A stretch of 34,020 nucleotides of DNA, taken from positions 1 to 34,020 of the forward strand of contig JAMPGV010000031.1 in assembly GCA_023663735.1 (NCBI GenBank), read 5' to 3'. The position numbers and the translations under genes were made by a program. The DNA comes from Muribaculum sp. (lineage in GTDB: Bacteria > Bacillota > Clostridia > Lachnospirales > Lachnospiraceae). Numbering within the stretch: the stretch's first letter is position 1; every line of letters begins with the position of its first letter. Positions 6,630 through 24,642 of this stretch are shown here, piece by piece. The notes under the pieces are model-generated. The model was not told the origin of the DNA and ran no database searches. It saw only the letters and a list, made by a program, of their open reading frames with translations.

Positions 6630-7067
6630 CTACAAAAAGGTCTTCGCCTGTCTCTCCAGAGCGTCCGCCTCCCGCTCCAGCCCCTCGTCCAGATTGAGGG
6701 CCAACCCTTCCATGCTTGCGGTGGGACGCACCTGTCCCCGCTTCTGCTGAACCACGTGACCCAGCTCGTGACCCAGATGCCGCTCCTGCCCCGGCGCCAC
6801 ATAGATCTGATTCCCCTGCGTGTAAGCCAGCGCGTCCAGTCTCGCCGGTCTGCCGGAATTGTAATGCACACGCACGTCATCCATGGACAGCCCGGACATG
6901 GACTCATATTGTCTTTTCAAGAGGTCGGGCAGGCCGGTTCTGTTGACATGTGTGTCGTTTTTTGCAGATGTTCTGCCTCTGGACCGTGTTTTGGATTGTG
7001 GTGATTGTGATTGAAGCTGCCTTTCGGATGGTGCGTTTTGCAGGTTGGCATTTGACAATGCAGACAT
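6630..7067 (-). CDS. DUF4157 (eCIS core domain) metallopeptidase-like protein
   Basis: The 145-aa product has a polar, probably disordered N-terminus (about residues 1-42) and then the complete DUF4157 pattern: LPDLLKRQYESMSGLSM, DDVRVHYNS, APGQERHLGHELGHVVQQ, and EREAD. The zinc motif HELGH is at residues 100-104, with E131/E133 as possible third ligands. DUF4157 (PF13699) is a hallmark of eCIS loci, where it occurs alone or fused to toxin domains. It is the last gene of the operon and the only protein here that looks like cargo or a cargo carrier. AAAGGGGA precedes the ATG. Whether it cuts peptides, and which ones, is not visible. Confidence 0.92.
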   Translation of the reverse strand: MSALSNANLQNAPSERQLQSQSPQSKTRSRGRTSAKNDTHVNRTGLPDLLKRQYESMSGLSMDDVRVHYNSGRPARLDALAYTQGNQIYVAPGQERHLGHELGHVVQQKRGQVRPTASMEGLALNLDEGLEREADALERQAKTFL

Positions 7068-7102
7068 TTCGGATCCCCTTTTTGATTTCTGATGATTCCC
7101 GG

Positions 7103-7342
7103 TTATTTTTTATTATTTTGATTGTTCTGTTTGTTTTTCTTGTCCAGTCCCAGAAAATAGTCCGCAGATACTTTGTAGAATTCGCACAGCGATATCACCT
7201 TCTCTATGGGGAGCGCATTCCGTCCGGTCTCATAGCGGGAATACACCCTCTGATCGATATTCAGATAAGCCGCCACCTCTTTTTGCCCCAGATCATTGTC
7301 TTCCCGCAGCTCTCGCATGACAATCACATAGTCTTTCCTCAT
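7103..7342 (-). CDS. Small XRE-family regulator inside the eCIS operon
   Basis: The 79-aa product is almost entirely one helix-turn-helix domain (MRELREDNDLGQKEVAAYL, then IDQRVYSRYETG, then FYKVSADYFLGL). It has a short Lys/Asn-rich tail. It lies between the ATPase and DUF4157 genes on the same strand and is therefore probably part of the eCIS transcript, allowing feedback. The ribosome site is weak (GAGG about 12 bases upstream), suggesting low expression. The role in eCIS control is inferred from position. Confidence 0.88.
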   Translation of the reverse strand: MRKDYVIVMRELREDNDLGQKEVAAYLNIDQRVYSRYETGRNALPIEKVISLCEFYKVSADYFLGLDKKNKQNNQNNKK

Positions 7343-7402
7343 ATTTATCTTCTGCCTCTTGCGGCCGCATTCCCCGGGAACCAGGCGGGTCAGCCGTAAT
7401 CC

Positions 7403-9391
7403 CTAAAAACTTTTCACCGCCGTCTCATCCTTGCCTGCCTCCAGTTCCAAAGCCTTTTTGAGATGTTCTTTGGTAATCCTCCCGCTCTTCCCACAGTCTG
7501 CCAGCATCCCGGCTACTCGGGCAGCGGCACGGATTCTGGCCGGACTCAGCTCGGCGGCGCGCGCCAACTCCTGAAAGGACACGCTCTCCTCCACCTCCGG
7601 CTTCTCCGCCGTCAATGCCTTCTCCCACAAAAGCGCCCTGCCCTTCTCGTCCAGATTGCGGAATTTGATGACAAAACGAATCCGCCGCACGAACGCATCG
7701 TCAAAATGGTTTAACAGATTGGTGGCCATAATCAGCATCCCGTCATACTCCTCGATGCGCTGAAGCAGATAGGACGTGGAGACATTCGCATATTTGTCCC
7801 GGGCGTCCTGTATGCCGGTTCTTCGGGAAAACAAGGCGTCGGCCTCATCAAAAAACAGGAGATAACGGTTCTTCTGCGCAAGATGGAAAATCTCGTCCAT
7901 ATGCTTTTCCGTCTCTCCGATATATTTGTCGAAGATCCGGGACAAATCCACCTTAAAGAGCGGAAGGTGCAGCCGCCTCGCCAGAATGGAGGCCGCCATG
8001 GTCTTGCCCGTCCCGGAACTTCCGTGGAACAGCAGATGCAGTCCCTGCCTCCCCGTCCAGCCCGCGGCCAGCTCCGCCACCGTCTCCAACTGGCTCCTGC
8101 ATTCCTCGGACAACACAATCTCCTCCGACGCGTCGCTGTTCTCTATGATTCTCCCCAGACCGGACAAGACGGTTGTCTCCCGCAGTCCCGCCTCCCATGC
8201 AGCAGCGCTTCCCTCCGAAATATGTTTCGTCTCGGCCCAGATCCGGATTGCCTCCTGTTTCTCTCTAAATTCTCCGATATTCAGCCGATATCTCTCCAGC
8301 ATCCGCATCTGCCAGTCCCCGCGCTCTGCAGGTTCCAGCCAGAGATCCAGCGCCGCCTCCCGCTCCTTTGCAGTCAGCCACTCCGCAGGTTCCAGCCACA
8401 GGTTTGCAAACGGTTCCGCCACACGGGCGCAGGCCGCCGTCTCCGCCATCAAAACCACCGGCACATCCTGAAGGCTCTCTGTCAGCAGAAATTCCAGATC
8501 CGCCGCCTGTCTCTCCGCCCCTGAAGAAACGGAAAGCCATCCCTGCGTGAGTTCCAGCACCGCCACCGGCTCTATCAGTCTGCACAGCAGCCGCAGAATA
8601 TGCCCGATCTCCCGCAGGGAATCTTCCCCCTCAGACAATTGGTCCATTTTTACAAAAACCGTATTGGCCAAACAGCTTCGACATACACGGCATAACAGCG
8701 TGTGCTTCCCGACCCCGCGCCTTCCTTTTAGCAGAATCCGGACGGGTCTCTTATTTCCCAAATGATACCGCAGGACGGCGGCCTCCCGCTCGTGGAGGAG
8801 TAGAAGTTCCTCCTCCCCGGGCAGCTTAAGCTGCTCATTTTGCCCGTTCTGCCCTCCGGCCGCGCCGGGCAGAAACGCCCGATACCAAGGCGCCTCTAAC
8901 AAAGTCCCGGTCAGCAGAAAATAAAACGCCGTTCGATTCAGAACCAACGGCAGCAGAAGAAGACCGCCCCGCTCCGCCTCCTCCCGGGGGAGCCGCAGAA
9001 GATCCCCAAGACCTCCGTTCTCCTGATGGAGCAGCGCAATCTGCTCAAAATCCACGGGCAGGACGGCAGAGAGCAGATGCAGGGCATATTGCAGGTTGGG
9101 TCGAAGTTCATGGTACTTTTCCCGAAAATCCAGACACAGTCCTCCCTCCAGCTCACAGCAAAAGGCGAACATCACCAGAAAATAAGAAGTCTCCGTCAGC
9201 TCAAAGCAAGTCCTCAAATATCGGGCCGGGAGAAAGATCTCGCTGTTTTCCTCTTTCTCCGCAATCTGTCCCCAAAGCTCCTCAAACGCCCTGCCAAGAG
9301 CTTCCGGTTCCTCCTGCTGCCAGTGCTGCAGACATAGAAAAAGTCCGAAATAGTCTTGCGTCTGTTCCTCTATGGAATCGTATTTGTCCAT
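7403..9391 (-). CDS. AAA+ ATPase of the contractile injection system (Afp15/Pvc15-like)
   Basis: The 662-aa product carries a C-terminal AAA+ module with Walker A GSSGTGKT (residues 457-464), Walker B LLFFDEAD (511-518), sensor-1 Asn in ATNLL (558) and arginines in FVRRIRF (569-572). An upstream region (about 215-400) holds a second, degraded P-loop, GRRGVGKH (223-230), with no clear Walker B. The N-terminal ~170 residues are helical. This arrangement fits the large ATPase always found in eCIS loci (Afp15/Pvc15 type), thought to act in assembly or cargo handling in the cytoplasm. AGGGGA precedes the ATG. It lies between the tail protein and XRE genes. Confidence 0.92.
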   Translation of the reverse strand: MDKYDSIEEQTQDYFGLFLCLQHWQQEEPEALGRAFEELWGQIAEKEENSEIFLPARYLRTCFELTETSYFLVMFAFCCELEGGLCLDFREKYHELRPNLQYALHLLSAVLPVDFEQIALLHQENGGLGDLLRLPREEAERGGLLLLPLVLNRTAFYFLLTGTLLEAPWYRAFLPGAAGGQNGQNEQLKLPGEEELLLLHEREAAVLRYHLGNKRPVRILLKGRRGVGKHTLLCRVCRSCLANTVFVKMDQLSEGEDSLREIGHILRLLCRLIEPVAVLELTQGWLSVSSGAERQAADLEFLLTESLQDVPVVLMAETAACARVAEPFANLWLEPAEWLTAKEREAALDLWLEPAERGDWQMRMLERYRLNIGEFREKQEAIRIWAETKHISEGSAAAWEAGLRETTVLSGLGRIIENSDASEEIVLSEECRSQLETVAELAAGWTGRQGLHLLFHGSSGTGKTMAASILARRLHLPLFKVDLSRIFDKYIGETEKHMDEIFHLAQKNRYLLFFDEADALFSRRTGIQDARDKYANVSTSYLLQRIEEYDGMLIMATNLLNHFDDAFVRRIRFVIKFRNLDEKGRALLWEKALTAEKPEVEESVSFQELARAAELSPARIRAAARVAGMLADCGKSGRITKEHLKKALELEAGKDETAVKSF

Positions 9392-9479
9392 GCGTATGTC
9401 CCCTTTTCAAGCATGTCGCCATGCCGCGACAACAGTGATAGCTGTGATAGCTACAATAACCGCAGTAACCGCTATCCTG

Positions 9480-10505
9480 TCACTGCAGCCGTATATTGTC
9501 CACGCAAATACCCTCCGCCCGCAGTTCTGCCTCATAGGGGGACACGATTGCGGTCTTGTCCAGAAAATACTGTCTGTCCAGCCGGTCTGTCCGGTGCAGG
9601 AAAATAAAATCCATGCAGATCCCTATCGGCGCGGCTTTTTTCATCCATTCCAAATAGGGTTCCTGCCAAACCTCCCGGCAGCTTTCGACCAGTATTGTCA
9701 GCCGACGCCTGCCCGGATCTTCCACAGACACGGCTCTGCAGCCCAGCAGAATTTGCGCCAGTTCGGTATAATATCCGCAGGTTCCCTTCCGATCCGCCAA
9801 GTGAATCCCCGCCCGCAGAAGCTTTTGCAGAACCTTCCACCGGATACCCTTGTCCTCAGCCGCCAGCCGCGCCGGTTCTTCCCATCCCATCCACTGCGCC
9901 AGCCGCACGACCTGTTCCTTTCCGCAGCACTCAAAATCCAATTCCTCCGCCAGCGCATCAATTTTCTCCTCCAGCTCCAGATAGATGTTCTGGTAAACCG
10001 CCAAAAAACGATCCAACGGCAGATGATTCTGATAGATGACAGGCAGATAGGCCGCAAAACTCTCCTTGGGAAAAGAAAGATCGTAACCCCTAAAAACCGT
10101 GTTCCTCTTCTCGTCCTCCCTCATGATTTTTAGCGCCAACTTTGCATAACGACCCCTGCCGTTTATACCGCCGTACAAAAGCAAATCCCAGTAGATGGAA
10201 GAATACTGCGCCCGCTCTTTGACGTATGCGAAACACTGCTCCACACTTCCTGCGGCGTCCGCTTTCTCTCCCTCTTCCTTTTGGTCAAACAGCCAGACAT
10301 ATGCAGAAAATACGGCGCTTCTGGTGATCCACAGCGCTAGGCGGTTCCACTGGGTCTGCGCTTTCCCACTGTCGTAGGTTTTGCTGACAAATATTCCTTG
10401 GACGCCTTCCTCGGGCAAAATCAGGCTTCCGTCTTCGTCCGCCGTCAATCCCTCCTGCTGCCCGCAGCGTTTTAGCTGTGTGGCGGACAGACATCTTTTC
10501 TTCAT
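9480..10505 (-). CDS. gpI-like phage tail/baseplate protein
   Basis: The 341-aa product contains a central region typical of phage tail protein I (TIGR02242/P2 gpI class): YLPVIYQ, DRFLAVYQNIYLELEEKID, (L)AQWMGWE, RW(K)VLQKLLRAGIHLADRKGT and a late TILVE stretch. In contractile tails gpI links the wedge (gpJ) to fibres. The start overlaps the stop of the wedge gene in an ATGA, so the two are co-translated. The C-terminus has no collagen-like or knob domain, so any receptor-binding fibre must be another protein. An 88-base gap follows before the ATPase gene; it holds only short GATAGC and TAACCGC repeats. Confidence 0.8.
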   Translation of the reverse strand: MKKRCLSATQLKRCGQQEGLTADEDGSLILPEEGVQGIFVSKTYDSGKAQTQWNRLALWITRSAVFSAYVWLFDQKEEGEKADAAGSVEQCFAYVKERAQYSSIYWDLLLYGGINGRGRYAKLALKIMREDEKRNTVFRGYDLSFPKESFAAYLPVIYQNHLPLDRFLAVYQNIYLELEEKIDALAEELDFECCGKEQVVRLAQWMGWEEPARLAAEDKGIRWKVLQKLLRAGIHLADRKGTCGYYTELAQILLGCRAVSVEDPGRRRLTILVESCREVWQEPYLEWMKKAAPIGICMDFIFLHRTDRLDRQYFLDKTAIVSPYEAELRAEGICVDNIRLQ

Positions 10506-12244
10506 TTTGAATACCCCTCCTTGGAGACGGCCACCTCAATTCTCCCGGCCGCCATGCGGTATTGCTCCAGATGTTTGGCCGTCATGGATCGGTACTTTTC
10601 CAGACAATGCTTATCCTGAATAGATTCCTCGGGAAAGACCTTCACCTTTATGATTCCGTTTTGATACGCCACATCCACTTTTTTGATAATCAGACCCGGC
10701 GTCTTCTTGGCATGTCGCCAGATATCTTCTTTTGTCACAAGGCGGTTCTGCCATTTCAACAATTTCGCCGCCTCCGCAAATTGTTCCGACGGTTTGCCTC
10801 CGGTTTTGCCGCCGCTGCCCACCATCGGATTGTTAAGCTTGACTGTTCCGAATAATTTCGGATTTTCCCATTCCCGTATTTTACCGATGGCCACATTTCC
10901 CTTTCCGCCGTCGGAAAGCACCAGAGACGTCAGAAGCAGTCCGTCCTCCGCCTCCTGCGGAATGTCGCCGTGTCTGCCGTCCCCCAGCACAATCGTCTCC
11001 CCGCACCAATGCCATCCGTTATCCCGGCTCGTCTCCTCCGGCTCCTGCCGCCAATATTCCCGATACCGGCTCCCGCCCGTTTTCTGCCGCAGCATCAGCT
11101 CCAGCCGGCCGTGGAGGATCCCCTCCCAGGGAAGCTCAATCTGCTGGGACGTCACCCCCGTGATCAGACAGGGACGATACCGCGAATCCACGTCCGGCGC
11201 GCTGCATACAATTTGGCACTCGACCGCTTTTTCTCCGGCCAGACATTCCGCCTCTGGCCATACGAACCGATTCGGCATCTCGGAGGTGATGGGCGGATCA
11301 ATCCGGCAGCGCTGCGTGATATCCTCCCATTCATCCTGCCCCCGCCGCAGCAACACCCGCAGATTGCCCGTTTTCGCCAGATAGCTCTTCAGAACGGCGC
11401 AGGGATGCTTTGCCGAGAGTAACACATGCTCCGAATGGCACAGCGTTTCCTGCTGTACGGCCGCGCCGACGTTCAGACGGATTCTATACAACTCGGGCAG
11501 GATGTCATAGCTTCCCTCCTTGATTCGGCACCGTATGGCAAACCCGTCCCCGCCGTCCGCCATAAATCCCTCCACGCGCAAGCGGATGCGTCCGCTGTAC
11601 AAAAGTCCCTTTGTCTCATCCAAATCAACCTGCGCCTCCTGCCAGCCTTCCGCCGTTTGATACTCCCACGCAAGCCGAGCCATATAGAAATCTCCCTCCA
11701 CGGGATTACGTTTTTTCTGTTCGTTGAGCAGCACGAAAAACGTCAGCGTCTCCCCCGGCTCCACGGCATATTTTAATGTGACGGTAAAAAGCGGATCCTC
11801 CCCGCGCAGGGCAAACCGGTTTTTGCGGCGCATTTTCATAACTTCTATCCGGTTCCGGCCATCCCCCTGATAGAATCCAGTCAGAAAATTGGCAGTAAGT
11901 TCCATTTCTCCCTCCGTCTCATACACCATTTGATCCGCCAGAAGTTTCGTCCCCGGGGGAATTGTGCAGTCTTTGTCTACATTATCATAAAAAATCCATG
12001 CCCGGGCGCAGCTTCCCTCGTCCGCGGGAATGCCCAGCAATTTCAGATATTTGCGGTAATGGCTCTCCTGTATCTGATCCAGATAATAGCTCTGCATATC
12101 CGCCAAAAGCGCCCAAAGCTCCAGCAGCGTTACGCCCGGATCGGACACTTCCCGATGCGTCCACCAAGGCGCCTGACTGCGCAGACGCTCCATCGCTTTC
12201 TCCAGAATTTTCCGGTAGCTGCTGTCATCCAACGACTTCTCCAT
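10502..12244 (-). CDS. Baseplate J-like wedge protein (Afp12-like)
   Basis: The 580-aa product begins with the strong family block (W)WTHREVSDPGVTLLELWA then LLADMQ(S)YYLDQI, characteristic of putative baseplate assembly proteins related to P2 gpJ/T4 gp6. The C-terminal part has the expected NPLMVGSG-like VKLNNPMVGSGG and ...VTKEDIWRHAKKTPGLIIKKVDV. It would form the baseplate wedge with gp25 and the preceding protein. The start at 12244 is preferred because GGAGG lies 6 bases upstream; an in-frame GTG at 12265 would lie before that site. It overlaps the end of the preceding wedge gene by 20 bases and the next gene by 4. Confidence 0.88.
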   Translation of the reverse strand: MEKSLDDSSYRKILEKAMERLRSQAPWWTHREVSDPGVTLLELWALLADMQSYYLDQIQESHYRKYLKLLGIPADEGSCARAWIFYDNVDKDCTIPPGTKLLADQMVYETEGEMELTANFLTGFYQGDGRNRIEVMKMRRKNRFALRGEDPLFTVTLKYAVEPGETLTFFVLLNEQKKRNPVEGDFYMARLAWEYQTAEGWQEAQVDLDETKGLLYSGRIRLRVEGFMADGGDGFAIRCRIKEGSYDILPELYRIRLNVGAAVQQETLCHSEHVLLSAKHPCAVLKSYLAKTGNLRVLLRRGQDEWEDITQRCRIDPPITSEMPNRFVWPEAECLAGEKAVECQIVCSAPDVDSRYRPCLITGVTSQQIELPWEGILHGRLELMLRQKTGGSRYREYWRQEPEETSRDNGWHWCGETIVLGDGRHGDIPQEAEDGLLLTSLVLSDGGKGNVAIGKIREWENPKLFGTVKLNNPMVGSGGKTGGKPSEQFAEAAKLLKWQNRLVTKEDIWRHAKKTPGLIIKKVDVAYQNGIIKVKVFPEESIQDKHCLEKYRSMTAKHLEQYRMAAGRIEVAVSKEGYSK

Positions 12245-14579
12245 CCGCCGCCTCCTTTTCCCCACATTCCGCCACTTCTCTCTCCAGACAGCTCACGTGA
12301 CAGCCGCCCAGATGCAGCGGACCCATATGGTGGAGCATCTCCTCGAACCACTCCCCGATCTCCGGCAGAAGCGTCTGCAGCTGCACCGCCATGCCCTCTT
12401 CCTTCTCAGAATCCCCCTGTCGCTCCAAAATCACCGCAAGCTCCCGCGCTTCCTCCTTGTATTGGCAGTCATAGATACGGACGAAGGGATAGCTTTTTTG
12501 CAGCAAAATTTCCAGATCCATCACCGACATCACGCGTCCGAACACTGCGGGATAACTCTCCCGCCACTGTTCTTCCTCCCACAGAGCCGTTCCGCGGCCG
12601 CCATACCGTGCGTCACATACGGATATGGCGTCCAGAATCCCCGTCTTGGGGGTCTCCACATGAAACACCGTTCCTGCGGGAAGCCTTGAATCCAAGTCCC
12701 CCTCCCCCGTTTCCGGGAGACCTAAAATTTCCACATAATTGGGATAAAATACCGGAAATGCCATCGGATCTCCCGCTTCCAGCCGAACCCAGAAGGCCTC
12801 CCTTCCAAAGAGAACTTTCCTGCCGATCATCTGATCCGGAGTGAAATGAAAACTTTCCGATCCCGCATACCAACGGTTGTCACCGGTGACCTCACGGTCA
12901 AAACCAAGATAGTTTCCGGTCTGCCCCGCCGAGCGATCCGCAACGATCCGCTCCTTGGGCAAAACACGACGCTCCGCAGACGCAAACCGAAGCCCTTCCC
13001 AAACGGGGATCTTCTTGCGGTAATAGGCCGCGTAGGCGTTGTCTGCTTTCACCGCCCGGAGACGGATGTAAAAATGTTCTTCCCCCTCCACGCTGCAGGG
13101 ACGCATATCCTGCGGAAGCCGCCATCTGTAAATCCGCTCGCCCGCCTCGCTTTTCCCTTCCCCTGCTGCCTCTTTTTCTCCTGCCGTCTCTTGCTCTCCG
13201 ACCGTCTTCTCTTCTCCTGCCGTCTCTTGCTCTCCGACCGCTTCCCCTTCTCCTGCTGTCTCTTTTTCTCCTGCTGCCGCTTTCTCTCCGACCACTTTCC
13301 CTTCTCCCGCTGCTTTTTCCCCTGTCGTCTCTTGCTCTCTGACCGCCTCCCCTTCTCCTGCTGCCTCTTTCTCTCCGACCGCTTTCCCTTCCCCTGCTGC
13401 CGACGCTGCGTTCTCCGGCAGTTTTTTCCAGAAGTTTCCGTCAAAGTACTCCCAGCAGGTCTCCCGGACGCTCCATTCTTCCACGGCCTCCTGCGGCTTA
13501 AGCCACGGATATTTCCGGTACAATTTTGCATATTCCTTGGGCGTTTCCGGCGGGAGTCTTTCTTCTATATCGCAGCGCTCCGTAAACCGGAGCGAGACTT
13601 CCCCGCCCTCTCCGGCCAGAACGCCGTCACAGGCCAAATAGCAGCACATTCCCGCTTCCGGCGCATCCGTAAAGGGAAGCAGACGCTCCCCGCCGCACGC
13701 TCCCGCTGCCGTCAGGCATAACTGCGCTTCCCTGCACTCCCCCGCCTCCCGCAGGGAAAATTCCCGAGAGAGGATCTCCAGCCACACGGGATCCATCTCC
13801 TCCCCGGCGGGAATATCCAGACGAATCTCATACCGGACATCCCCCAGATACCCCGCAAAGGCGGGCGTGGAACCGGATAGTCTGCACTGTCCCTCTGACT
13901 GCTCCCACTCCAGCAAATAGGCGTCCGCACCGCCGCTGATCTGCCAGACGCCCGGCAGAATACGATCGTCCAAATCCGGAAGATCCTCTCCCGGCTCCCA
14001 CTCCAGAACATACGCCACACCGTCTTTCCCATTGCACAGATTCGGAAAATACCATCGAAAAACCGGATGGCAAAGCTCTTCGCCCACCGCTTGGGACAAA
14101 AGAATCGGGAAATCCTTAGAATCTTTGGCCGTCCCGCCGTCATAAGTCAGCCATGCACACAACCCTTTTTGATAAACCGCATACCGAAGTCTGGCGGCAG
14201 TAAGCCGCAGATCTTCTTGCAATGCAAAGCGCAGCAGGCTGCCTTGTTCGGGTATCATATAACATTCCGTTCCCCGGGCAAGGCACTCCCCGTCGCTTCC
14301 GCCGGACGCCCGCACGGACAGCGCCGTCTTTAACTTGCGCGCCTCTCTCTCCTGCGGAGGCATCACCGACAGAAATTTCTGCTTATGTCTCTCCCAGATC
14401 TCATCATACCGCTTCTGGTTCTCCTGCATCATGTCCAAAAATGAGTCTGTGAGAACGCTCCCGGCCTCCGGACTGCCCGGCATATATTCCCATCCGGTCT
14501 GGTAGGCGAGCGCAAGTTTTTTGACCCAGATCTCCCTCCACAATCTTCTTTTTTTGTCGTCTATTTCGGTGCTTTCCAT
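12225..14579 (-). CDS. Large baseplate wedge protein (Afp11-like) with a Gly/Glu repeat insert
   Basis: The 784-aa product sits in the Afp11 position directly before the gpJ-like gene. It shows the usual opening (FLDMMQENQKRYDEIWER, then HKQKFLSV) and baseplate-like strands such as WEYFDGNFWKKL and RWRLPQDMRP. Between those last two, residues about 394-482 are a low-complexity insert of repeating GEKEAAGEGEAVGEQE-like units, probably a disordered surface loop. AGAGGA lies just before the ATG. The three tandem repeat elements at 14605-15008 separate this gene from gp25, so its translation is not coupled to the upstream genes. Assignment to Afp11 rests on position and general pattern. Confidence 0.75.
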   Translation of the reverse strand: MESTEIDDKKRRLWREIWVKKLALAYQTGWEYMPGSPEAGSVLTDSFLDMMQENQKRYDEIWERHKQKFLSVMPPQEREARKLKTALSVRASGGSDGECLARGTECYMIPEQGSLLRFALQEDLRLTAARLRYAVYQKGLCAWLTYDGGTAKDSKDFPILLSQAVGEELCHPVFRWYFPNLCNGKDGVAYVLEWEPGEDLPDLDDRILPGVWQISGGADAYLLEWEQSEGQCRLSGSTPAFAGYLGDVRYEIRLDIPAGEEMDPVWLEILSREFSLREAGECREAQLCLTAAGACGGERLLPFTDAPEAGMCCYLACDGVLAGEGGEVSLRFTERCDIEERLPPETPKEYAKLYRKYPWLKPQEAVEEWSVRETCWEYFDGNFWKKLPENAASAAGEGKAVGEKEAAGEGEAVREQETTGEKAAGEGKVVGEKAAAGEKETAGEGEAVGEQETAGEEKTVGEQETAGEKEAAGEGKSEAGERIYRWRLPQDMRPCSVEGEEHFYIRLRAVKADNAYAAYYRKKIPVWEGLRFASAERRVLPKERIVADRSAGQTGNYLGFDREVTGDNRWYAGSESFHFTPDQMIGRKVLFGREAFWVRLEAGDPMAFPVFYPNYVEILGLPETGEGDLDSRLPAGTVFHVETPKTGILDAISVCDARYGGRGTALWEEEQWRESYPAVFGRVMSVMDLEILLQKSYPFVRIYDCQYKEEARELAVILERQGDSEKEEGMAVQLQTLLPEIGEWFEEMLHHMGPLHLGGCHVSCLEREVAECGEKEAADGEVVG
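13134..13400. repeat. Low-complexity tandem repeats within the wedge gene
   Basis: On the plus strand this stretch is an irregular array of 18-24-base units built from CTGC(C/T)(G/T)(T/C)CTC, TTTCTCTCCGACC and similar words. On the minus strand it encodes alternating GEKE, AAGEGE, AVGEQE and TAGE blocks (residues about 394-482). The unit length is a multiple of three throughout, so copy-number change would keep the frame. Confidence 0.85.
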
Positions 14580-14690: not shown

Positions 14691-14708
14691 CTATCCTTAT
14701 TATTTATT

Positions 14709-15008: not shown

Positions 15009-15395
15009 CTACGGCTCCGTCCGGCCGCCCAGCCAGACCTCCGCCCGATCGCTCTCCCGGCGTCCCACAATCTCATAGGAGACGGTCACATGAAGCGCCC
15101 CCTCTCTGCGCGCGTCCGCATCCACCATTACATTCGCAATCCGCTTTTCCCACATGCCGAGGGAATGCCTGATCTCCCGTCGGATCATTTCCTGCGTCCG
15201 ATCGTCTATGTTTTCAAATAGAAACTGGTGCAACTTGGTGCCGAAATCCGGATGCAGAATCCGCTCCCCCGGTTCCGTCAGGAGAATAATCTTGACCGAC
15301 TCCCGGATATTGTCCCGCAGTTCGCTGACCTCCACCCGTCCGTGTTCGCCGGACACGGTAAACGGGAATTTGCATCCCCTTGATTCTGTTGACAT
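15009..15395 (-). CDS. gp25/GPW-like baseplate wedge protein (Afp9-like)
   Basis: The 128-aa product is a typical GPW/gp25 protein. It shows an FPF(T) opening, (L)RDNIRESVKIILLT, EPGERILHPDFGTKLHQFLFEN and IRREIRHSLGMWEKRI; the EPGER-P-FG core is the family hallmark, shared with lysozyme-like gp25 and TssE. It forms part of the wedge that triggers sheath contraction. GGAGGAGAGAG precedes the ATG. Its stop codon abuts repeat copy C, suggesting an insertion right at the 3' end of the gene. Confidence 0.93.
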   Translation of the reverse strand: MSTESRGCKFPFTVSGEHGRVEVSELRDNIRESVKIILLTEPGERILHPDFGTKLHQFLFENIDDRTQEMIRREIRHSLGMWEKRIANVMVDADARREGALHVTVSYEIVGRRESDRAEVWLGGRTEP

Positions 15396-18098: not shown

Positions 18099-18434
18099 TC
18101 ATCTGCCTTTCCGCACCGCATCCAGACGAAGACGTTCCTCCACTTTCTCATACACCCGGAGCGCAACTCCGGAGACGAGCGCACTCTCCGGGCGATCCGT
18201 CCCGAAAACCTGCTCCATATGTTTGGCCGCCAGCGAGGGGCGGGATTTGTAATATTCCCGCTCTTCTTTCAACTGCTTCCGCACAGTCTCCTTGATGAAA
18301 GGGAGCAGCGCCTCTTTCATCTTCTCCCGTTCTCTCGTCCGGTCAATCTCCTTCGCCCTGCCCGCGCCGCTCCCCGGATGCGCATATTCCAAACAAATAC
18401 CCTGCGTGTCATAGACAATCGGTTTGATCTTCAT
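18099..18434 (-). CDS. Small helical protein in the Afp6 position, function unknown
   Basis: The 111-aa product has a short beta-like opening (MKIKPIVYDTQGICLEY), a Gly-rich link and then a long, highly charged helical stretch (KEIDRTREREKMKEALLPF; KETVRKQLKEEREYY). In Afp/PVC loci a small gene of unknown role lies at the same place between the second tube gene and Afp7. I do not recognise a family. A role in tube or hub assembly is inference from position. The ribosome site is modest (GGAAAGG 12 bases upstream). Confidence 0.6.
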   Translation of the reverse strand: MKIKPIVYDTQGICLEYAHPGSGAGRAKEIDRTREREKMKEALLPFIKETVRKQLKEEREYYKSRPSLAAKHMEQVFGTDRPESALVSGVALRVYEKVEERLRLDAVRKGR

Positions 18435-18461: not shown

Positions 18462-18896
18462 TTATCTACCCATCTGAAAGTCCTCGTAGCTGATCTCAAA
18501 ATGATCCACCAGAATCCCGTTCTGATCCGCACTCATCTCCCCGACTTCCCAGCTTTTCACGATTAATTCCGTGAACAGATAGGTCTTTAAGGGCTTCCGC
18601 TGATTGTCCATGACCATCACGTTGAGAACTCCCGGAATCTTCTGTCCCACCAGACAGAGCGGATTCATCTGTCCGGCATAAATGCCTTTTTCCAGACGCA
18701 GAATCTGCTCCGCCCCGCAGGATTTGGGAAAAATATGTACTTTTGTGTTCAGGCCGCCTTCCTGAACAATCTCCGTCTCGATCTGGCTCCTCATCCCTGT
18801 GATCTTCTGAAATCCCATCAGGATGTTGTTCAGAGACACAATAAACCGATACCCCGGCAGGGGGTCTGCAAAAGAGGGGAATGACTTCTGTGGCAT
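18462..18896 (-). CDS. Second tube protein, gp19-like (Afp5-like)
   Basis: The 144-aa product is a phage T4 gp19-like inner-tube protein: a YRFIVSLNNILMGFQKITG opening, a Val/Glu loop, (K)GIYAGQMNPL and a C-terminal (N)ILVDHFEISYEDFQ. It diverges clearly from the main tube protein encoded at 19521-19952, as expected of an initiator ring at the tube base rather than the repeated shaft subunit. AAGGAG lies 8 bases before the ATG. Confidence 0.88.
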   Translation of the reverse strand: MPQKSFPSFADPLPGYRFIVSLNNILMGFQKITGMRSQIETEIVQEGGLNTKVHIFPKSCGAEQILRLEKGIYAGQMNPLCLVGQKIPGVLNVMVMDNQRKPLKTYLFTELIVKSWEVGEMSADQNGILVDHFEISYEDFQMGR

Positions 18897-18926: not shown

Positions 18927-19103
18927 TTAAAGGCGGAACATATTTTTCTCGCCGTTAATCTTTTTGTTGATGCGGTTGATCTCCTCACAGTACCTGCGTC
19001 TCTCCGGATGGGACATTTTCAGAATCTGCTCCTCCGGCCAGTGGAAATAATATCCGATAAAAGAGACCTCCCGGCACAATTCTTCCCTGTCTGTCAGCGT
19101 CAT
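18927..19103 (-). CDS. DUF6760-type small tail-associated protein
   Basis: The 58-aa product holds (F)HWPEEQILKMSHPERRRYCEEINRIN in overlapping form: the W-P-x-E-x-I and H-x-E-R-R-R marks are typical of DUF6760, a tiny protein found beside tube genes in eCIS and related prophage loci. The ATG at 19103 overlaps the preceding stop as ATGA, so it is translationally coupled. An in-frame upstream start at 19157 would lie inside the neighbouring gene and is less likely. By analogy with paired tail-assembly genes it may act as a chaperone; unproven. Confidence 0.78.
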   Translation of the reverse strand: MTLTDREELCREVSFIGYYFHWPEEQILKMSHPERRRYCEEINRINKKINGEKNMFRL

Positions 19104-19468
19104 TCCCCGATAGCAAAATTTAGCGTGTCGGTAAAGGTTTTGCCGCAGTGCGGACACTGTACCCGGATAATCGGATCTTCCGCTTTGTTCACCGTCTCGT
19201 ACATATTCTGCAGATAGGCAAAATCCGGCGTGAACAGACCTCCGATCAATTCCGGCGTGATCTCGCCGATTCCTCCCAGATTCATCACAACCCGGGACAG
19301 CAGGATCACGGACTGGTACTCCGGATTGCTTTTGGCGCCGGGATTTCTCGCGGCTTCAATCTCGTCTAACGCCGTGGCCAGACGCATCCGTCCCTGACGG
19401 TGCAGCGTTCCCTGTTCGTCCACATACCCTTTGGGCAGCGTAAATTCATATTCCGTCTGAATTAACAT
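19100..19468 (-). CDS. Phage-tail-assembly-like protein with a CxxC knuckle
   Basis: The 122-aa product begins (T)EYEFTLPKGYVDEQGTLHRQ in part, a pattern of small tail-assembly proteins in eCIS loci. It continues with (M)RLATALDEIEA, SVILLSRVVMNLGG and a C-terminal CPHC at 105-108 followed by GKTF. Only one CxxC pair is present, so a metal site would need a second subunit or other ligands. It lies between the main tube gene and the DUF6760 gene with GGGAGG upstream. The role is probably tube assembly; this is inference. Confidence 0.72.
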   Translation of the reverse strand: MLIQTEYEFTLPKGYVDEQGTLHRQGRMRLATALDEIEAARNPGAKSNPEYQSVILLSRVVMNLGGIGEITPELIGGLFTPDFAYLQNMYETVNKAEDPIIRVQCPHCGKTFTDTLNFAIGE

Positions 19469-19520: not shown

Positions 19521-19952
19521 TTATTTGTCTCTCGTCACACCCTCATGCGCCAGCTCCAGCGTCTCCACCGCCACCTCGTTCCCGGTGGCATTGAAATCCG
19601 GCGCGGTATATTTGGTGGGCCATGCGGAGATGACCGTCCATTTGGCGATCTCGGCCTGCTTGTCGTCGTGAAGGCTGATGACCACCGTCTTGCGGGTGAT
19701 TGTGCCGCCCTCCACTTCTTTCATCCAGTTGTACAGATCCATGGATTTGGTCATGCCCCACTTGAGGGTGATATTGCCGTACTTGATGATACCCGGCTGC
19801 TTGCCCACTGTATTGACCGCAAAATTGCCCTCCCGGTATTCGATCGGATCCGACGAAATATCCGGCGCGCTCACCTCGGAAAACCCGCCCACCACATTAC
19901 CGTCGATCGTAACTTCATAATTATATTTTTTAAAGGGATATACCATTGCCAT
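19521..19952 (-). CDS. Main inner tube protein, gp19-like (Afp1-like)
   Basis: The 143-aa product is a textbook contractile-tail tube subunit: (Y)NYEVTIDGNVVGGFSEVSA, EYREGN, a GNITLKWGMTKSMDLYNWM block and C-terminal (A)VETLELAHEGV. Hexamers would stack to form the ejected tube. It follows the sheath gene after 13 bases, with GGAGG 8 bases before the ATG, so the two main shaft proteins are co-expressed. Confidence 0.95.
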   Translation of the reverse strand: MAMVYPFKKYNYEVTIDGNVVGGFSEVSAPDISSDPIEYREGNFAVNTVGKQPGIIKYGNITLKWGMTKSMDLYNWMKEVEGGTITRKTVVISLHDDKQAEIAKWTVISAWPTKYTAPDFNATGNEVAVETLELAHEGVTRDK

Positions 19953-19965: not shown

Positions 19966-21762
19966 TCACTGTGCGTTTTCCATTTTCTGGGTGATGCGGA
20001 AGATCACAAATTCCGCGGGCCGTACCGGCGCCACGCCGATGACGCAGATCAGTCTTCCGTTCAGAATGTCGTCCTCTGTCATGGTACTTTTCCCGATATT
20101 GATAAAAAATGCTTCGTCCGCCGTAGCGCCGGCCAGCGCGCCGTTTCTCCACTGGGTAGTCAGAAATACCCGGATGGTTCCCTCCACTCTGGACCAGAGA
20201 ATCTCATCGTTGGGTTCAAATACCGCCCAGTTGGTGTTGGCTCGGATGGACTCCTCGATAAAGATGAAGAGCCTTCTCACATTCACATATTTCCAGTTGC
20301 CGTCGCTGGAACAGGTTCTTGCACCCCACACCCGGATGCCCTGTCCGGGAAGCTGGCGGATTAAATTGACGCCTTTGGGGTTGAGTTTCCCCTGTTCCGC
20401 CTCGTTGTATTTGACGGAAAGCCCGGTGCAGTTTCTGACGATCTCGTTGGCGGGAGCCTTATGTACGCCTCTGGTATTGTCCGTGCGCCCGTAGATGCCG
20501 GCTACGGAACCGGAGGGCGGCATATAGACGTTCCGGTTTGCCAGAGGATCGTAGCACTGCAGCCAGGGATGATACATGGCGGCGTAGCTGGAATCGATAT
20601 TTTCCTTAAACTGCTGTAACTCCGACACTTCCTTGTCCTCCACAGGCATATCCAGTATGGCAAAGCGGCTTCCCATGCTCTCGCAATGGCTGACCAGCGC
20701 GCTCTGCACAGCGCTGTCGGTAATGCCCGGGATCGCCATGATACTCACGTCGGAGAGCGTCTTAAACGCCGCAAGCCCGGTTCTCTTGTCCGGGGATCCG
20801 TCCTGCCCCTTATAGAGCTTCACATTGTTCGCCTGTACCTGATCAATCTTGCCGTCGCTTCCCTCCTCAAACCGAATCAAGAACGACAGCTCCCCGGCGT
20901 CTCCAAACAGCTCCTTGATCTTGAGATTCTTTAATTCGTCCACCGACTCCACCGTAACCAGCTGGGATTTTTCCATAGCCTGTCCTATATAATTGCTGCG
21001 GGCGGAATTGAAAGAGATTTCCTCATACTGTTCCATGGCCGTGTCGTCCTCCACCATCAGATTCCACTCCACCAGATATAAGAAAAATTTTGCTGTTTCT
21101 TCTACTGCAGACAAAGCTTCCGTAAAGATAATGCTGCTGCCCTCCACTTTGTCGATCAAGGCATAAGTCAGGCTGGCCGTTTTCGTCCCGTCGGTCTCCT
21201 TGACACATTGAATGCAGATGAGATCTCCGCTCTGATAGCTTCCCGCATTCTCCACGGCCGCCTGTCCGGCTTGCATTTCCGCAACCGCCATCCGGTTCTT
21301 GAATGCAGACACAAGCTTCACCTTCAGACTGTTCCCCCAGACGCCGGGGTTGGACGCGCGCAGTTTCAGAAACTCTACATCCGCCATCTTTTCCCCCTTT
21401 TGCGTAACAAATACCCCCGTGGCACGCACCGCGCCGCCGTTGTCCTGATCTTCCTTGTCCGGACCCGATTCACTTTTCTCCTTGCACACCCGCATCACAT
21501 AGCAGGCGGAACCGCCGTTGTTAAAAAACTGCTCCACCGCATAGGGCAGGAAGCGCAAGTTCCCGTAAGTACACTCCGGCAGGTATCCGCCGAAACGTCT
21601 CTGATAATCCGCCATGCTGGTGATCAGCACCGGCAGTCCCTGAATCGGCCCTTTCTGCGCCATGCCGATAAACCCGGCGGTACTGGTACCCACCCCTTCC
21701 ATTGCCTTGATTCCGGAGTCGAACTCCTCCACATATACGCCCGGTGATAAATACTCTGCCAT
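19966..21762 (-). CDS. Contractile tail sheath protein
   Basis: The 598-aa product begins with the sheath signature MAEYLSPGVYVEEFDSG, continues with FIGMAQKGP, and ends with the conserved sheath handshake domain (DDILNGRLICVIGVAPVRPA, EFVIFRI). The C-terminal (S)GSVAGIYGRTDN...GVHKAPAN and (G)VNLIRQLPGQGIRVWGART patterns are classic sheath features. AAAGGAG lies 4 bases before the ATG at 21762. Only one sheath gene is present, unlike Afp/PVC, which have two or three, so this single long subunit must build the whole sheath. Confidence 0.95.
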   Translation of the reverse strand: MAEYLSPGVYVEEFDSGIKAMEGVGTSTAGFIGMAQKGPIQGLPVLITSMADYQRRFGGYLPECTYGNLRFLPYAVEQFFNNGGSACYVMRVCKEKSESGPDKEDQDNGGAVRATGVFVTQKGEKMADVEFLKLRASNPGVWGNSLKVKLVSAFKNRMAVAEMQAGQAAVENAGSYQSGDLICIQCVKETDGTKTASLTYALIDKVEGSSIIFTEALSAVEETAKFFLYLVEWNLMVEDDTAMEQYEEISFNSARSNYIGQAMEKSQLVTVESVDELKNLKIKELFGDAGELSFLIRFEEGSDGKIDQVQANNVKLYKGQDGSPDKRTGLAAFKTLSDVSIMAIPGITDSAVQSALVSHCESMGSRFAILDMPVEDKEVSELQQFKENIDSSYAAMYHPWLQCYDPLANRNVYMPPSGSVAGIYGRTDNTRGVHKAPANEIVRNCTGLSVKYNEAEQGKLNPKGVNLIRQLPGQGIRVWGARTCSSDGNWKYVNVRRLFIFIEESIRANTNWAVFEPNDEILWSRVEGTIRVFLTTQWRNGALAGATADEAFFINIGKSTMTEDDILNGRLICVIGVAPVRPAEFVIFRITQKMENAQ

Positions 21763-21884: not shown

Positions 21885-22268
21885 TCAAAAAAGTACGGTG
21901 GGACAAATCGGCGCTGCCGCCTGTATATTTCCTCCGTAGACGCATTGCAATTTGGAATCCATGGTGACCGCCTCCGTTCCATGTGCTTTCACCTTTTTAC
22001 AAGGTTTCGTCCAGTCCTGCAATGTGCAGGGTATGCAGGGCATGGGCGTGAGTACCCCCAACGCTGCTGCCGTGGCGGCGATCACCATGGGGTTGGCGGG
22101 ATTGGAACACATGCCGAACGGCAAAATGTGTACAAACGGAATGTGATCCGTCTTCACCGCCACGGGGGTCATAGCATTGACTTTCTTGTCCGGCAGCACC
22201 ATAAGGGGCGTAGGCAAATTTCCAAAACTACATTTTAACAAGCATCCCTGCGTCAACACTGGCTTCAT
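21885..22268 (-). CDS. DUF4280 PAAR-like spike-tip protein
   Basis: The 127-aa product shows the DUF4280 (PF14107) pattern: TQGCLLKCSFG at the start, a TDHIPFVHILPFGMC(S)NPANP run in parts, (M)PCIPC, DWTKPCKKV and a final (S)KLQCVYGG(N)I. The many Cys and Pro residues suit a small metal-stabilised cone like PAAR proteins. It would sharpen the gpV-like needle. AGAGGAG precedes the ATG. Its position before the sheath gene rather than after gp25 differs from Afp/PVC order. Confidence 0.88.
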   Translation of the reverse strand: MKPVLTQGCLLKCSFGNLPTPLMVLPDKKVNAMTPVAVKTDHIPFVHILPFGMCSNPANPMVIAATAAALGVLTPMPCIPCTLQDWTKPCKKVKAHGTEAVTMDSKLQCVYGGNIQAAAPICPTVLF

Positions 22269-22300
22269 CTTTTACTCCTCTCAATGTAACCAAACCCTTC

Positions 22301-22864
22301 CTACCGTCTCTCCACACCGTAATCCCTCTGCTCCACAGGATTGACAGACTGCATTCTCCGGGAGGCGATCAGAACCGGCGCGGCTTTCACATACACGGCG
22401 GGCCAGAGCGCCTGATGAAAACTCCCCCACAGCCGGATTTTAAACTCCACATCCTCCCGCAGGAAAAAGAGTTCCACCGGCTCCCCGTCCTCTCTCTCCA
22501 GCACAGGGTTATCGTACACGGCGCGGACGATCTCGTTTAAGATCCTGTGGAGCTGTCCTTTCTGCAGTCCGCCGAAGCGGTGGTTCTGATTGCAGAAGAT
22601 CAAATACGAAAGCTCCGCCGCCTTGGGCGGAAATCTCCTTTTCCGCTCGTCGATATAGACGCCCGGTGCGGATACGGGAGAATAATCCTGTATGTCATAC
22701 AGATAAATTCCCACCCGGTAATCTTCCTCATCCCACGGCGCCGTGAGGGCGACGGCGTCCTCGTCCCGCACATATTCGGGACAGAGGGATTTTTTCAAAA
22801 GCTCCAAAATGCTCTTGCCCGTCTGTAGAATTTCACTGTCTAAACCGTCCTGTACGCAATCCAT
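22301..22864 (-). CDS. Pvc16-N/DUF4255 tail terminator (cap) protein
   Basis: The 187-aa product shows (L)DSEILQTGKSILELLKKSL, (V)GIYLYDIQDYSPV, the run PPKAAELSYLIFCNQ and a late (P)VELFFLREDVEFKIRLW. This is the DUF4255/Pvc16-N family that caps the end of eCIS sheaths and tubes and stabilises them. The start at 22864 has GGGAGG about 10 bases upstream and overlaps the preceding gene by 25 bases; the longer frame to 23014 is a shadow. As second gene of the operon it would be made early. Confidence 0.85.
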   Translation of the reverse strand: MDCVQDGLDSEILQTGKSILELLKKSLCPEYVRDEDAVALTAPWDEEDYRVGIYLYDIQDYSPVSAPGVYIDERKRRFPPKAAELSYLIFCNQNHRFGGLQKGQLHRILNEIVRAVYDNPVLEREDGEPVELFFLREDVEFKIRLWGSFHQALWPAVYVKAAPVLIASRRMQSVNPVEQRDYGVERR

Positions 22865-24642
22865 GAAATCGTGACCTCCCTGCCCCGGCTCCGCCGAAAC
22901 CCCCGCGATAACGTGACCGCGATCTGAAACGTTCCCTTCTCCACGTTCTGCCGAAGCGCCTGTTCCCTGACGTCCCGGTTGCCGTTCCACCTGCTCTCCC
23001 ATCCGGCTTCCCATCTGTCTGCGAAAAGCTTCTGCTCCCCATAGACAATCGAATGGGGTGGTCTTCCACCGTTCCCGTACTCATATAGAAAATGGCAGCC
23101 TTCATACAGCACGCCCCACCGGATCAACGCCTCCTCCCCCGGGAATCCATAGGAAATTTCCTCCGAATACAGGATCCGGCCTTTCCGATAACGGTTCGGA
23201 ACAGGAATCACCGCCACACCGCGTCGGATTTCTTCCCGCCGGTTTTCCCGCAGCCATTCCTTCAACTGCTCCGGCGCAGCGTCCGGTTTCGGAAATGCAG
23301 GCGGCGGAAGTTCCGGCGAAGGCTCCGGCAGCGGCGGTTTTGTCCAAAAGGGATTCCGTTTTCCCCCCAAACGTTTCAGGAGACCGCGCCACGGAATCTC
23401 CACAATTCCGTCCTCCTCCTCAACGCGCTCCAAAAGCGCCTCCCCGCCGGGATGAACCACGTAAACCCGCGGCCGGAAGTCCTGTTGTAGGACAAAACGG
23501 TATTCGTCCTCTTCCCCTGTCTTCTCCACTCTCAAATGCCCCAGCGGAACCCAGTCCGCCGGCCGGCTCTCTCCCACAGATTCCCGCAGGCAGCTTTGCA
23601 CCGCCCGATTCTCTCCTGCGGATTCCCACAGCCAGCCCTGCACCGGCTGGCTCTCTCTTGCGGACTCCCGCAGACCGTCCCGCACCGGCTGACTCTCTCT
23701 TGTGGACTCCCGCAGACCGTCCCGCACCGGCTGGCTCTCTCTCTCGGATCCCCGCAGACAGCTTTGCACTGTTCGGCGGTATTCCGATACCGTCTCTATG
23801 GACAGCCGGGAAGAGGCCGACTCCACCGTCTCTGTTTTACCAAAGATTTCCACCGCAATTTCCATGCGGTTCAGCTCCAACTCCACGGGGAGTCTCCTGT
23901 TCTCCTCCGTACAGATCTCCCACTCCTGCGACAGCTCTCCCGTGAATCCCGTCCATTCTTTCTCCAAAATTTCAAAAGATTTGCCCGTCTCGGCAAAAAA
24001 AGCGCCCTGCATCTTCACCGCGCCCCGCCAGCGGATCTTGGCGCTCGCCCCGTCCCGCGCCCGCATCTGTAAACGCATCCGGAACATACTGTCCTCGGGG
24101 ATCAGTCTGGGAATCTTAAGAATCAGCTTAACCGCCTCGCCGTCATACAGCACCCGCTCCTGCGTGAACATGCGCTCCTTCACATGGGTCTGCGCCCACA
24201 GACGCCGCCACTCTTCCTCGGAATACGCTCCCAGCGAAAAGGTCTCCCGAATCCGCGCCACCTGACATACCGTCTTGTCTCCCTCCAGAATCGCCTGTTC
24301 GCTCTCCGCGGGTTGTTCGTCATATCGGATTCCCAATATAAAATCCGGTTCCTTCTCCGGGTTCAGCCCTTTGATTCCCTTGACGTCCCATTCGGTATCC
24401 TGCGGCGCAATAATAATCCGCCCCGCCGGGTCTAGGGCGCTTCCCGCCGTCAGCTTCAAACCGCCCTCCTGCCCGGTTTTCAACTCCAAACCTTCGATAA
24501 TCCCACAGCCCTGAAATTTGCGGTTCAAAAACTCCAGCTTGCGGCTGCCGTATTCCTGCTCGTTGATAAAGTCGGCGGCATGGAGCAGCTTGCCGGGATA
24601 ATATCGGGTTTTGATCAATGCCTGATCTATTTTACTTTCCAT
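22840..24642 (-). CDS. Large first gene of the eCIS operon, baseplate/fibre candidate
   Basis: The 600-aa product opens with (K)TRYYPGKLLHAADFINEQEY and (F)QGCGIIEGLEL, a pattern I know from uncharacterised proteins of phage-tail-like loci. A beta-rich region follows (about 60-290). Residues 294-363 are five 14-residue tandem repeats of the type DGLRESTRESQPVR. After a Pro-rich linker (about 435-460) comes a C-terminal beta-rich domain. There is no signal peptide. GGGGAG lies 8 bases before the ATG. It is the best candidate in the locus for a peripheral baseplate or receptor-contacting protein, but no fibre domain is recognised, so this is inference. Confidence 0.7.
   Translation of the reverse strand: MESKIDQALIKTRYYPGKLLHAADFINEQEYGSRKLEFLNRKFQGCGIIEGLELKTGQEGGLKLTAGSALDPAGRIIIAPQDTEWDVKGIKGLNPEKEPDFILGIRYDEQPAESEQAILEGDKTVCQVARIRETFSLGAYSEEEWRRLWAQTHVKERMFTQERVLYDGEAVKLILKIPRLIPEDSMFRMRLQMRARDGASAKIRWRGAVKMQGAFFAETGKSFEILEKEWTGFTGELSQEWEICTEENRRLPVELELNRMEIAVEIFGKTETVESASSRLSIETVSEYRRTVQSCLRGSERESQPVRDGLRESTRESQPVRDGLRESARESQPVQGWLWESAGENRAVQSCLRESVGESRPADWVPLGHLRVEKTGEEDEYRFVLQQDFRPRVYVVHPGGEALLERVEEEDGIVEIPWRGLLKRLGGKRNPFWTKPPLPEPSPELPPPAFPKPDAAPEQLKEWLRENRREEIRRGVAVIPVPNRYRKGRILYSEEISYGFPGEEALIRWGVLYEGCHFLYEYGNGGRPPHSIVYGEQKLFADRWEAGWESRWNGNRDVREQALRQNVEKGTFQIAVTLSRGFRRSRGREVTISWIAYRTV
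23554..23763. repeat. Five 42-bp tandem repeats within the first eCIS gene
   Basis: On the minus strand five in-frame 42-base units encode SCLRGSERESQPVR, DGLRESTRESQPVR, DGLRESARESQPVQ, GWLWESAGENRAVQ and SCLRESVGESRPAD (residues 294-363). Units 2 and 3 are nearly identical at DNA level. Flanking protein on both sides is non-repetitive. The unit keeps the frame, so copy number may vary between strains. Confidence 0.92.

Follow-up and report, generated by a model that had tools for sequence, protein, structure and literature searches.

A clostridial contractile injection system locus with a candidate repressor–operator regulon

Introduction

Do nineteen phage-tail-like genes on one bacterial contig encode the remains of a phage or an injection machine, where would such a machine act, and what holds it in check? 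These questions are raised by a 34,020-nt stretch of Lachnospiraceae DNA, hereafter the window, which is the whole of contig C24 (JAMPGV010000031.1) in a 2.65-Mb assembly (GCA_023663735.1; 73 contigs, rated 87% complete). A preliminary description took its minus-strand operon, running from 24642 to 6630, for a complete-looking extracellular contractile injection system (eCIS) rather than a prophage or R-tailocin, with a gene order unlike that of antifeeding prophage (Afp) and Photorhabdus virulence cassette (PVC) loci that may represent a less-studied Firmicute lineage. The literature that we searched (openly licensed PMC papers, top matches) says little about contractile injection systems (CIS) in Clostridia, and a recent survey is reported to place human-gut CIS mostly in Bacteroidota (PMC12210884).

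The machine is of an established kind, it belongs to an under-described lineage, and it comes with a candidate repressor–operator regulon. To the joint reading, an eCIS-type contractile injection system held under its own small repressor, we assign a probability of about 0.68.

Results and discussion

An eCIS-type machine rather than a phage tail

The operon consists of nineteen open reading frames (ORFs), all open and all on the minus strand, as previously described; the count is nineteen because the 58-amino acid DUF6760 gene and the 79-amino acid XRE-type gene are included (Table 1). Profile searches (Pfam on 34 window proteins, PHROGs on 20) matched most of the products to eCIS families, several of them below curated cut-offs, and the earlier list of parts stands for most members, g13 being assigned a wedge role from its position and conservation. 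Sheath, tube, hub/spike and gp25 genes lie in one cluster, the hub below its cut-off, together with the eCIS-specific cap (PF14065), AAA+ ATPase (PF00004) and DUF4157 marker (PF13699). The description of the locus as complete-looking needs qualifying: a tail fibre (Afp13-like; no fibre-type library match among the 19 proteins), a full-length tape measure (Afp14-like; no library match among the locus proteins) and a toxin moiety on the DUF4157 protein were not recognised. A fibre is not universal, several toxin-bearing eCIS being reported without afp13 (PMC8213781).

A prophage remnant or R-type tailocin would account for the homology of the sheath, tube and baseplate genes to phage tails, for tblastn matches of the sheath in 2296 phage records (all below 60% identity), and for the placement of a P2-like phage row in the sheath tree, where its very long branch lies next to ungrouped Streptomyces and Treponema rows. 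The AAA+ ATPase, Pvc16 cap, DUF4280, DUF6760 and DUF4157 genes, all present, speak against it. So does the lack of capsid, packaging, terminase, holin or other lysis, integrase and fibre genes among the 34 window proteins scanned, a negative that holds for this contig, as nothing is readable past its ends and capsid genes were not sought genome-wide; the preliminary description had already remarked the lack of capsid, terminase, lysis and integrase genes. An R-tailocin or prophage would be marked by a lysis cassette, by a fibre and its chaperone or by capsid genes, none of which were found there. Genes on either side of the operon are of the usual chromosomal, housekeeping kind, encoding two MATE transporters, a cytidylate-kinase-like protein, ApbE, NusG_II, a heptaprenyl synthase component, a two-component system and a WG-repeat protein.

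Among solved structures, the sheath is closest to 9ezm (408 bits), from the CIS of Halogeometricum borinquense, and then to 8bky (352 bits), from Streptomyces coelicolor (both identified in PMC11566945), and 8bl4 (343 bits), with Afp, PVC and other rows at 119–187 bits, pyocin at 56, and the remainder at 51 or less. In a sheath tree of 48 rows, the window and its closest relatives (class A, below) form one clade (100/100) with Cellulosilyticum next, 20 chosen rows of a second clostridial group (class B) form another (99/96), and the five phage rows sampled all fall outside both. By ranking and tree alike, the sheath groups with CIS and not with phage sheaths. Quick trees without phage rows, one of 62 ATPase rows and one of 24 g14 rows, likewise recover class A as one clade. 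Given the flank genes, the ranking and the sheath tree, an eCIS is borne out, and we consider a phage or tailocin origin highly improbable.

A coherent clostridial sub-lineage

A sheath-based scan of genome contigs confirmed 135 loci, 80 of which were kept for comparison. The gene order of the window (cap and tip first, g01 through g15, ATPase after) is not a chance arrangement, being repeated in 11 of the 80, which were fetched with the sheath. We refer to the window and these relatives (L012–L020, L022 and L025) as class A, comprising twelve clostridial loci, most of whose records are named Lachnospiraceae or one of its genera; a Cellulosilyticum locus (L021) is a partial relative. The ATPase lies upstream of the sheath in 50 of the other 69 loci, and none lies within the stretch covered in the remaining 19. 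At 1e-60 the sheath is matched in 21 of 146 related genomes, that of the window included, six of them being class A by an identity of at least 69%. Judged by order and trees, class A is a coherent, monophyletic clostridial sub-lineage, which upholds the suspicion of a Firmicute lineage apart from the Afp/PVC order. Five features had escaped the preliminary description: the conservation of g17, the promoter dyad, the tape-measure slot, the toxin-less state of g18, and the existence of sister loci with the ATPase first.

These sister loci, class B (e.g., L041 of Petralouisia muris and L074 of [Clostridium] polysaccharolyticum), have sheaths that are ~48–52% identical, the same block of tube, g06, DUF6760 and second tube and, in several cases, a short DUF4157 gene adjoining the ATPase, as here. 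They differ from class A in that the ATPase comes first, a long ORF fills the g08 position in most, and the block of g01, cap and tip is not upstream of the sheath, L021 being the exception. The g08 profile matches in all 11 class A relatives and, at 1e-3, in none of the other 69 loci, where the g17 profile likewise has no match. Afp and PVC loci share homologues of the cap, ATPase, gp25, hub and sheath with the window; their sheaths are more distant, and they carry three sheaths, a fibre and a tape measure.

A small regulator and a promoter dyad

A candidate for what holds the operon in check is encoded within it. The XRE-type gene g17 follows the ATPase in 8 of the 11 class A relatives at 82–90% identity (9 of 12 genomes with the window), and its mean identity of 84% is second to the 93% of the g05 tube (91–97%, the highest of the class A proteins compared; g06b and g09 were left out). 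At 84% identity or more, g17 occurs at four places in the 146 relatives, all on a contig carrying a class A sheath, and g17-like matches elsewhere reach at most 67%.

Shared palindromes were sought in the 300 bases before g01, and TTACTA-N8-TAGTAA was found in 8 of the 12 genomes. The corresponding dyad (Table 1) is unique in the window as an inverted repeat whose arms are perfect over at least 12 bp and whose spacer is 0–20, and it is the single site in 34 kb matching the palindrome with up to two mismatches (0.22 expected). Within the 34–42-kb stretches, sites with at most one mismatch lie upstream of g01 only and in exactly the nine g17-bearing genomes, window included; the three class A genomes without g17 have no such site, G153 having one with two mismatches. 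This co-occurrence (9/9 vs 0/3) gives a Fisher's exact p of 0.0045. Genome-wide, the exact pattern TTACTAC-N7-TAGTAA is found at one place in each of seven genomes, at two in G156, and at none in G147, G148, G151, G153 and G155; in the genome of the window the dyad is the one place, and a reversed control pattern has one match in 13 genomes. The second exact dyad of G156 precedes, on a different contig, an eCIS_core gene that encodes more than 600 amino acids. It lies 97 bases before the start of the longest frame and 196 before an ATG that is a plausible start, and a TATACT was noted by eye between the dyad and that ATG. In the flanks fetched for the three remaining unlinked eCIS_core genes (L094, L100, L101), no site with up to two mismatches occurs.

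It might be argued that g17 is an unrelated passenger, and that the dyad is bound by some other conserved regulator of an ordinary eCIS. XRE genes are common, a match at 1e-12 being found in 34 of the 146 relatives, and the association spans few genomes that are kin to one another. However, the restriction of close copies to class A sheath contigs, with a gap down to 67%, the near uniqueness of exact dyads genome-wide, and the exact tracking of g17 by promoter dyads all argue for a specific link, and XRE proteins are said often to autoregulate and to bind palindromes as dimers (PMC12565409). We therefore consider a passenger g17 unlikely, and the sequence comparisons suggest that g17 and the dyad form a candidate repressor/operator regulon. 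A stronger version, in which class A would have a true regulon, with g17 proteins of 73–87 amino acids acting on TTACTAC-N6-GTAGTAA-type dyads both at the operon promoter and beside payload genes elsewhere in the genome, and in which the stand-alone DUF4157 zincin would be a conserved loading factor acting in trans, is tentative and falls somewhat short of even odds. If true, the pair would offer a way to switch a silent locus on through one small gene, and the dyad could be used as a tag for finding remote payload genes. Among the top matches of the literature search, no paper concerns this regulator, as judged by title and the start of the abstract.

A two-component system (c31, c32) found in the window and its nearest relative was considered as the regulator and set aside, as no other class A stretch has it. 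In G147, a further near-palindromic dyad (L171, 1501–1520; one mismatch) lies near a contig end, and the open frame beyond it runs off the contig. The window holds another XRE-type gene, of 121 amino acids, on the plus strand (6261–6626), which ends 3 bp from the g18 stop and occupies the interval where similarity to the nearest relative breaks.

A possibly shortened protein in the tape-measure slot

In class A the slot between g07 and g09 holds g08 only (111–198 amino acids as called). We compared this slot in 41 other loci with both neighbours in view: the gap exceeds 600 bases in 33 and leaves little room in eight. All but two of the large slots (31/33) hold an ORF of 371–1800 amino acids (across a masked stretch in L044), and those of L026 and L031 hold one of 183. 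The slot ORF ends in an LRxExLRRG-like motif in 28 of the 33 loci, and 11 of 12 g08 proteins end in the same motif under a slightly looser pattern. When a profile of the last 45 residues of the long ORFs was run against 3172 class A ORFs, 16 matches were obtained at E values up to 10, nine of which, including the best four, are g08 (best single E 0.017); conversely, the g08 profile matched one long ORF among the 33 slot ORFs, at 0.00027.

In the CIS of S. davawensis, a large ORF likewise immediately precedes the baseplate genes, a position filled in the same way in most of the other clostridial loci, and this ORF, the largest of the CIS, is reported to be a tape-measure-related DUF4157 effector (Tme, PMC11126660); class A differs in having only g08 in that place and its DUF4157 gene elsewhere. 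From position and motif we propose, with moderate confidence, that g08 is a shortened tape-measure-type protein that has kept the end facing the tube initiator. With slot ORFs ranging from ~110 to 1800 amino acids between sister lineages, these loci would offer a ready-made comparison of how the length of the tube is determined.

A core-only DUF4157 protein, and the question of decay

The g18 product is a zincin-like DUF4157 core without a toxin part. HExxH is present in 23 of 23 core rows, drawn with a profile built from HExxH-bearing proteins, and is followed 26–27 residues later by ExxA[D/E] in 21 of the 23; L100, outside this table, lacks the second motif. Helices are predicted in g18 at residues 95–109 and 128–143, so that, by sequence and predicted helices, HExxH and a downstream Glu ligand on the following helix are in the arrangement of gluzincins (thermolysin-like metallopeptidases). 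The DUF4157 domain of VgrG2b (PDB 6h56, PMC6899460) belongs to a toxin borne on a type VI secretion system (T6SS) spike, with its third ligand, E983, 44 positions after H939, whereas g18 is a core-only protein and g18-type cores have a spacing of 27–28 positions. In relatives, the DUF4157 core is fused to variable C-terminal parts.

Could the locus be decaying and non-functional, its cargo truncated and its operon interrupted by repeats? In the nearest relative the g18 orthologue extends to a fusion of 1236 amino acids, and DNA similarity to that relative breaks 14 nt from the end of g18, where that relative has 13.7 kb and the window 651 bp. Between g12 and g13 (14590–15000) stand two copies of a partly palindromic, ~200-bp interspersed repeat, and in-frame repeats enlarge g01 (a 42-bp-unit coding minisatellite at 23559–23769, not seen in the 11 class A orthologues) and g13 (18–51-bp units at 13158–13399, by Tandem Repeats Finder). 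Set against this are the 19 open ORFs, the recurrence of short core-only proteins in other loci, six of which end three or four residues past LExEA[D/E], the last predicted helix of g18, which ends two residues before the C-terminus, and operator arms that are perfect over 12 bp. We regard decay as distinctly unlikely.

Because the nearest relative has the long fusion but short cores beside the ATPase recur, g18 may be either a loading factor or a cargo remnant. The role of DUF4157 is left open in PMC8213781 and PMC11297309, and stand-alone cores adjoining the ATPase bear on it.

The intergenic region 14580–15008 was considered as an eCIS-specific regulatory element and rejected: its repeat is genome-wide, at no fewer than 53 places in the own genome, at least 42 of them at E 2.1e-53 or better (40 of 139 candidates scored). 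No Rfam family reaches its gathering score in the window. In the nearest relative (L155), a tyrosine recombinase gene (6391–7242) directly follows the 1236-amino acid DUF4157 gene, and a two-domain Amidase_2 and Phage_lysozyme gene lies further on (9026–10090); both are absent from the window.

How the machine may act

We propose that g17 would dimerise on the inverted repeat at 24781–24810, silencing the operon, its own gene and, in one relative or more, a DUF4157 gene outside the locus, and that a signal would lift this repression. Cytoplasmic assembly of the particle would follow, g08 serving as a tape-measure-type anchor of reduced length; the ATPase, helped by the zincin core of g18, would load the payload; and on contraction the tube and its payload would be driven into a target. 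We lean towards antagonism of other cells, since the C-terminal parts attached to the DUF4157 core vary in the manner of polymorphic toxin systems.

The principal alternative is an intracellular CIS like that of Streptomyces, which is reported to work inside the cell (PMC10066040), with particles that would remain cytoplasmic and cause the producer to die or differentiate. In its favour, the locus shows no recognisable fibre, typical tape measure or lysis gene, the S. coelicolor and S. venezuelae clusters are likewise described without a conventional fibre or typical tape measure (PMC10066040), and the S. coelicolor sheath is the second-best solved relative. A further similarity to Streptomyces CIS is that the J-like chain matched by g14 belongs to 9gtp, which contains the 8bky sheath as well. 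Streptomyces CIS differ in their gene order and cargo and in the CisA adaptor and transmembrane effectors described for them (PMC10066040, PMC12237407). In a hydropathy scan no protein of the window locus is clearly transmembrane (g03 scores 1.86, and g16 and g04 marginally reach 1.6; CisA itself was not searched), and the varied C-termini fit antagonism of other cells. Self-directed firing is possible but on balance unlikely.

The haloarchaeal CIS offers a third comparison, being reported as a membrane-attached, contact-dependent weapon (an archaeal T6SS) with DUF4157 toxins and no tape measure gene; in H. borinquense both the plug cis6 and the tape measure are reported absent (PMC11566945). 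Like the window, it has a g01-like gene just before the sheath, which is the best solved match to ours, and a DUF4157 gene adjoining the ATPase (order from a Haloferax larsenii plasmid). It differs in having two subclusters, a separate PAAR gene, and cap and ATPase on the other strand, and one haloarchaeal group has a gene for a protein with six transmembrane segments; in the sheath tree, Haloferax clusters with Paenibacillus and Rhizobium instead of class A. Among the genes flanking the locus, no membrane gene keeps a constant place, the ABC-transporter-like c10 and MATE c22 each occurring in 5 of 13 stretches at varying places. That the machine is extracellular, as first described, is not borne out, no fibre or lysis gene being recognised and the nearest solved relatives being reported as membrane-bound or intracellular; the word is a family name here and not a result.

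Several observations weigh against a repressed and functional eCIS-type machine. The 9/9 vs 0/3 association comes from kin genomes and may reflect one or two independent events, the sheath and ATPase trees conflict on the placement of L014 and L017, and g17 was sought in G153 within a 40-kb stretch only. G147 carries g17 and a promoter site with one mismatch and has no exact place; with one mismatch allowed genome-wide, matches do not exceed the control, so one-mismatch sites away from the promoter weigh little. The dyad precedes only one of the four unlinked eCIS_core genes, and the case for DNA binding by g17 consists of its HTH_3 domain and the co-occurrence. Among the structural genes, g13 has no library match, to a known wedge family or otherwise, eight long slot ORFs scanned with PHROGs and Pfam match no tape-measure family, and the kinship of g08 to the long ORFs is drawn from position and a short C-terminal motif, with weak single matches. 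Neither an exit route nor a receptor is recognisably encoded, the locus having yielded no fibre, no lysis gene and no membrane anchor. Finally, the locus may no longer be competent, with a toxin-less g18 at a synteny break and a repeat splitting the operon.

Features of the locus

Table 1. Operon genes and promoter dyad, with the match or other basis for each assignment.
Feature	Coordinates	Strand	Basis
Promoter dyad, proposed g17 operator	24781..24810	.	perfect 12-bp arms TTATTTTACTAC / GTAGTAAAATAA, 6-bp spacer
g01, CIS13-like, 600 aa, first gene of operon	22840..24642	-	NF053767 N-terminal match 1.2e-14, below cut-off
g02, cap/terminator (Pvc16_N)	22301..22864	-	PF14065 2.7e-15; ORF opens 23014, likely start 22864
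g03, PAAR-like tip (DUF4280)	21885..22268	-	PF14107 3.3e-23
g04, sheath, 598 aa from likely ATG	19966..21762	-	PF04984 7.4e-22, PF17482 (C-terminal domain) 3.8e-17; PDB 9ezm 4.9e-121; ORF opens 21795, likely true start 21762
g05, inner tube (gp19)	19521..19952	-	PF06841 8.6e-44
g06, 122 aa, tail-assembly-chaperone-like, CxxC/H end	19100..19468	-	phrog_508 7.5e-12
g06b, DUF6760, 58 aa	18927..19103	-	PF20546 1.9e-15
g07, second tube protein (gp19-like)	18462..18896	-	PF06841 9.2e-14
g08, 111 aa, class A protein	18099..18434	-	no library match
g09, CIS_tube (tube initiator/adaptor)	17409..18077	-	PF19266 5.2e-22
g10, hub (gpD/VgrG-like), likely start 17361	16282..17361	-	PF05954 1.1e-5, below cut-off; phrog_52 1e-11
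g11, needle/spike (gpV OB domain)	15475..16272	-	PF04717 3.2e-12
g12, gp25 wedge	15009..15395	-	PF04965 7.9e-22
g13, first wedge-type protein, 784 aa	12225..14579	-	position and conservation only
g14, baseplate wedge (J-like)	10502..12265	-	TIGR02243 4.4e-33, below cut-off; PDB 9gtp chain 1K 2.4e-16
g15, gpI/Tail_P2_I-like adaptor	9480..10505	-	NF053768 (CIS12) 4.9e-9, TIGR02242 3.6e-7, both below cut-off
g16, AAA+ ATPase	7403..9391	-	PF00004 7.4e-27
g17, XRE-type regulator, 79 aa	7103..7342	-	PF01381 1.3e-12
g18, core-only eCIS_core/DUF4157 protein, 145 aa, zincin-like	6630..7067	-	PF13699

Orthologues of g01 occur throughout class A, and similar proteins in Haloferax and Cellulosilyticum. 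We considered g01 as a hypervariable receptor-binding fibre; its N-terminal and C-terminal parts alike are conserved throughout class A, which led us to reject this. Sequence and profile searches of the PDB with g01 matched no CIS protein. The AlphaFold2 (AF2) model of g01 is poor (mean predicted local distance difference test, pLDDT, of 58), and Foldseek returned for g01 mostly Ig-like folds and two phage baseplate proteins at a low template modelling score (TM-score). In L013 (7877–9079), g01 lacks ~200 central residues. Orthologues of g13 in class A are 40–58% identical.

An empty insertion site was not shown, the flank genes lying on separate contigs in the eCIS-negative genomes G037 and G059; the stretches L157–L159 match the window over 100 bp or more at flank genes only. 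Between a shared 183-amino acid gene and the operon, the window has a gene for a 783-amino acid WG-repeat, lipoprotein-like protein (26369–28720) and a MATE gene, while in the nearest relative g01 directly follows the 183-amino acid gene without these two. The class A ATPase of L113 (G152) has only 438 amino acids, its middle part apparently missing. A CIS-like cluster on a Treponema succinifaciens plasmid (L128) includes several M23 peptidase and SH3 genes and is ordered differently from class A.

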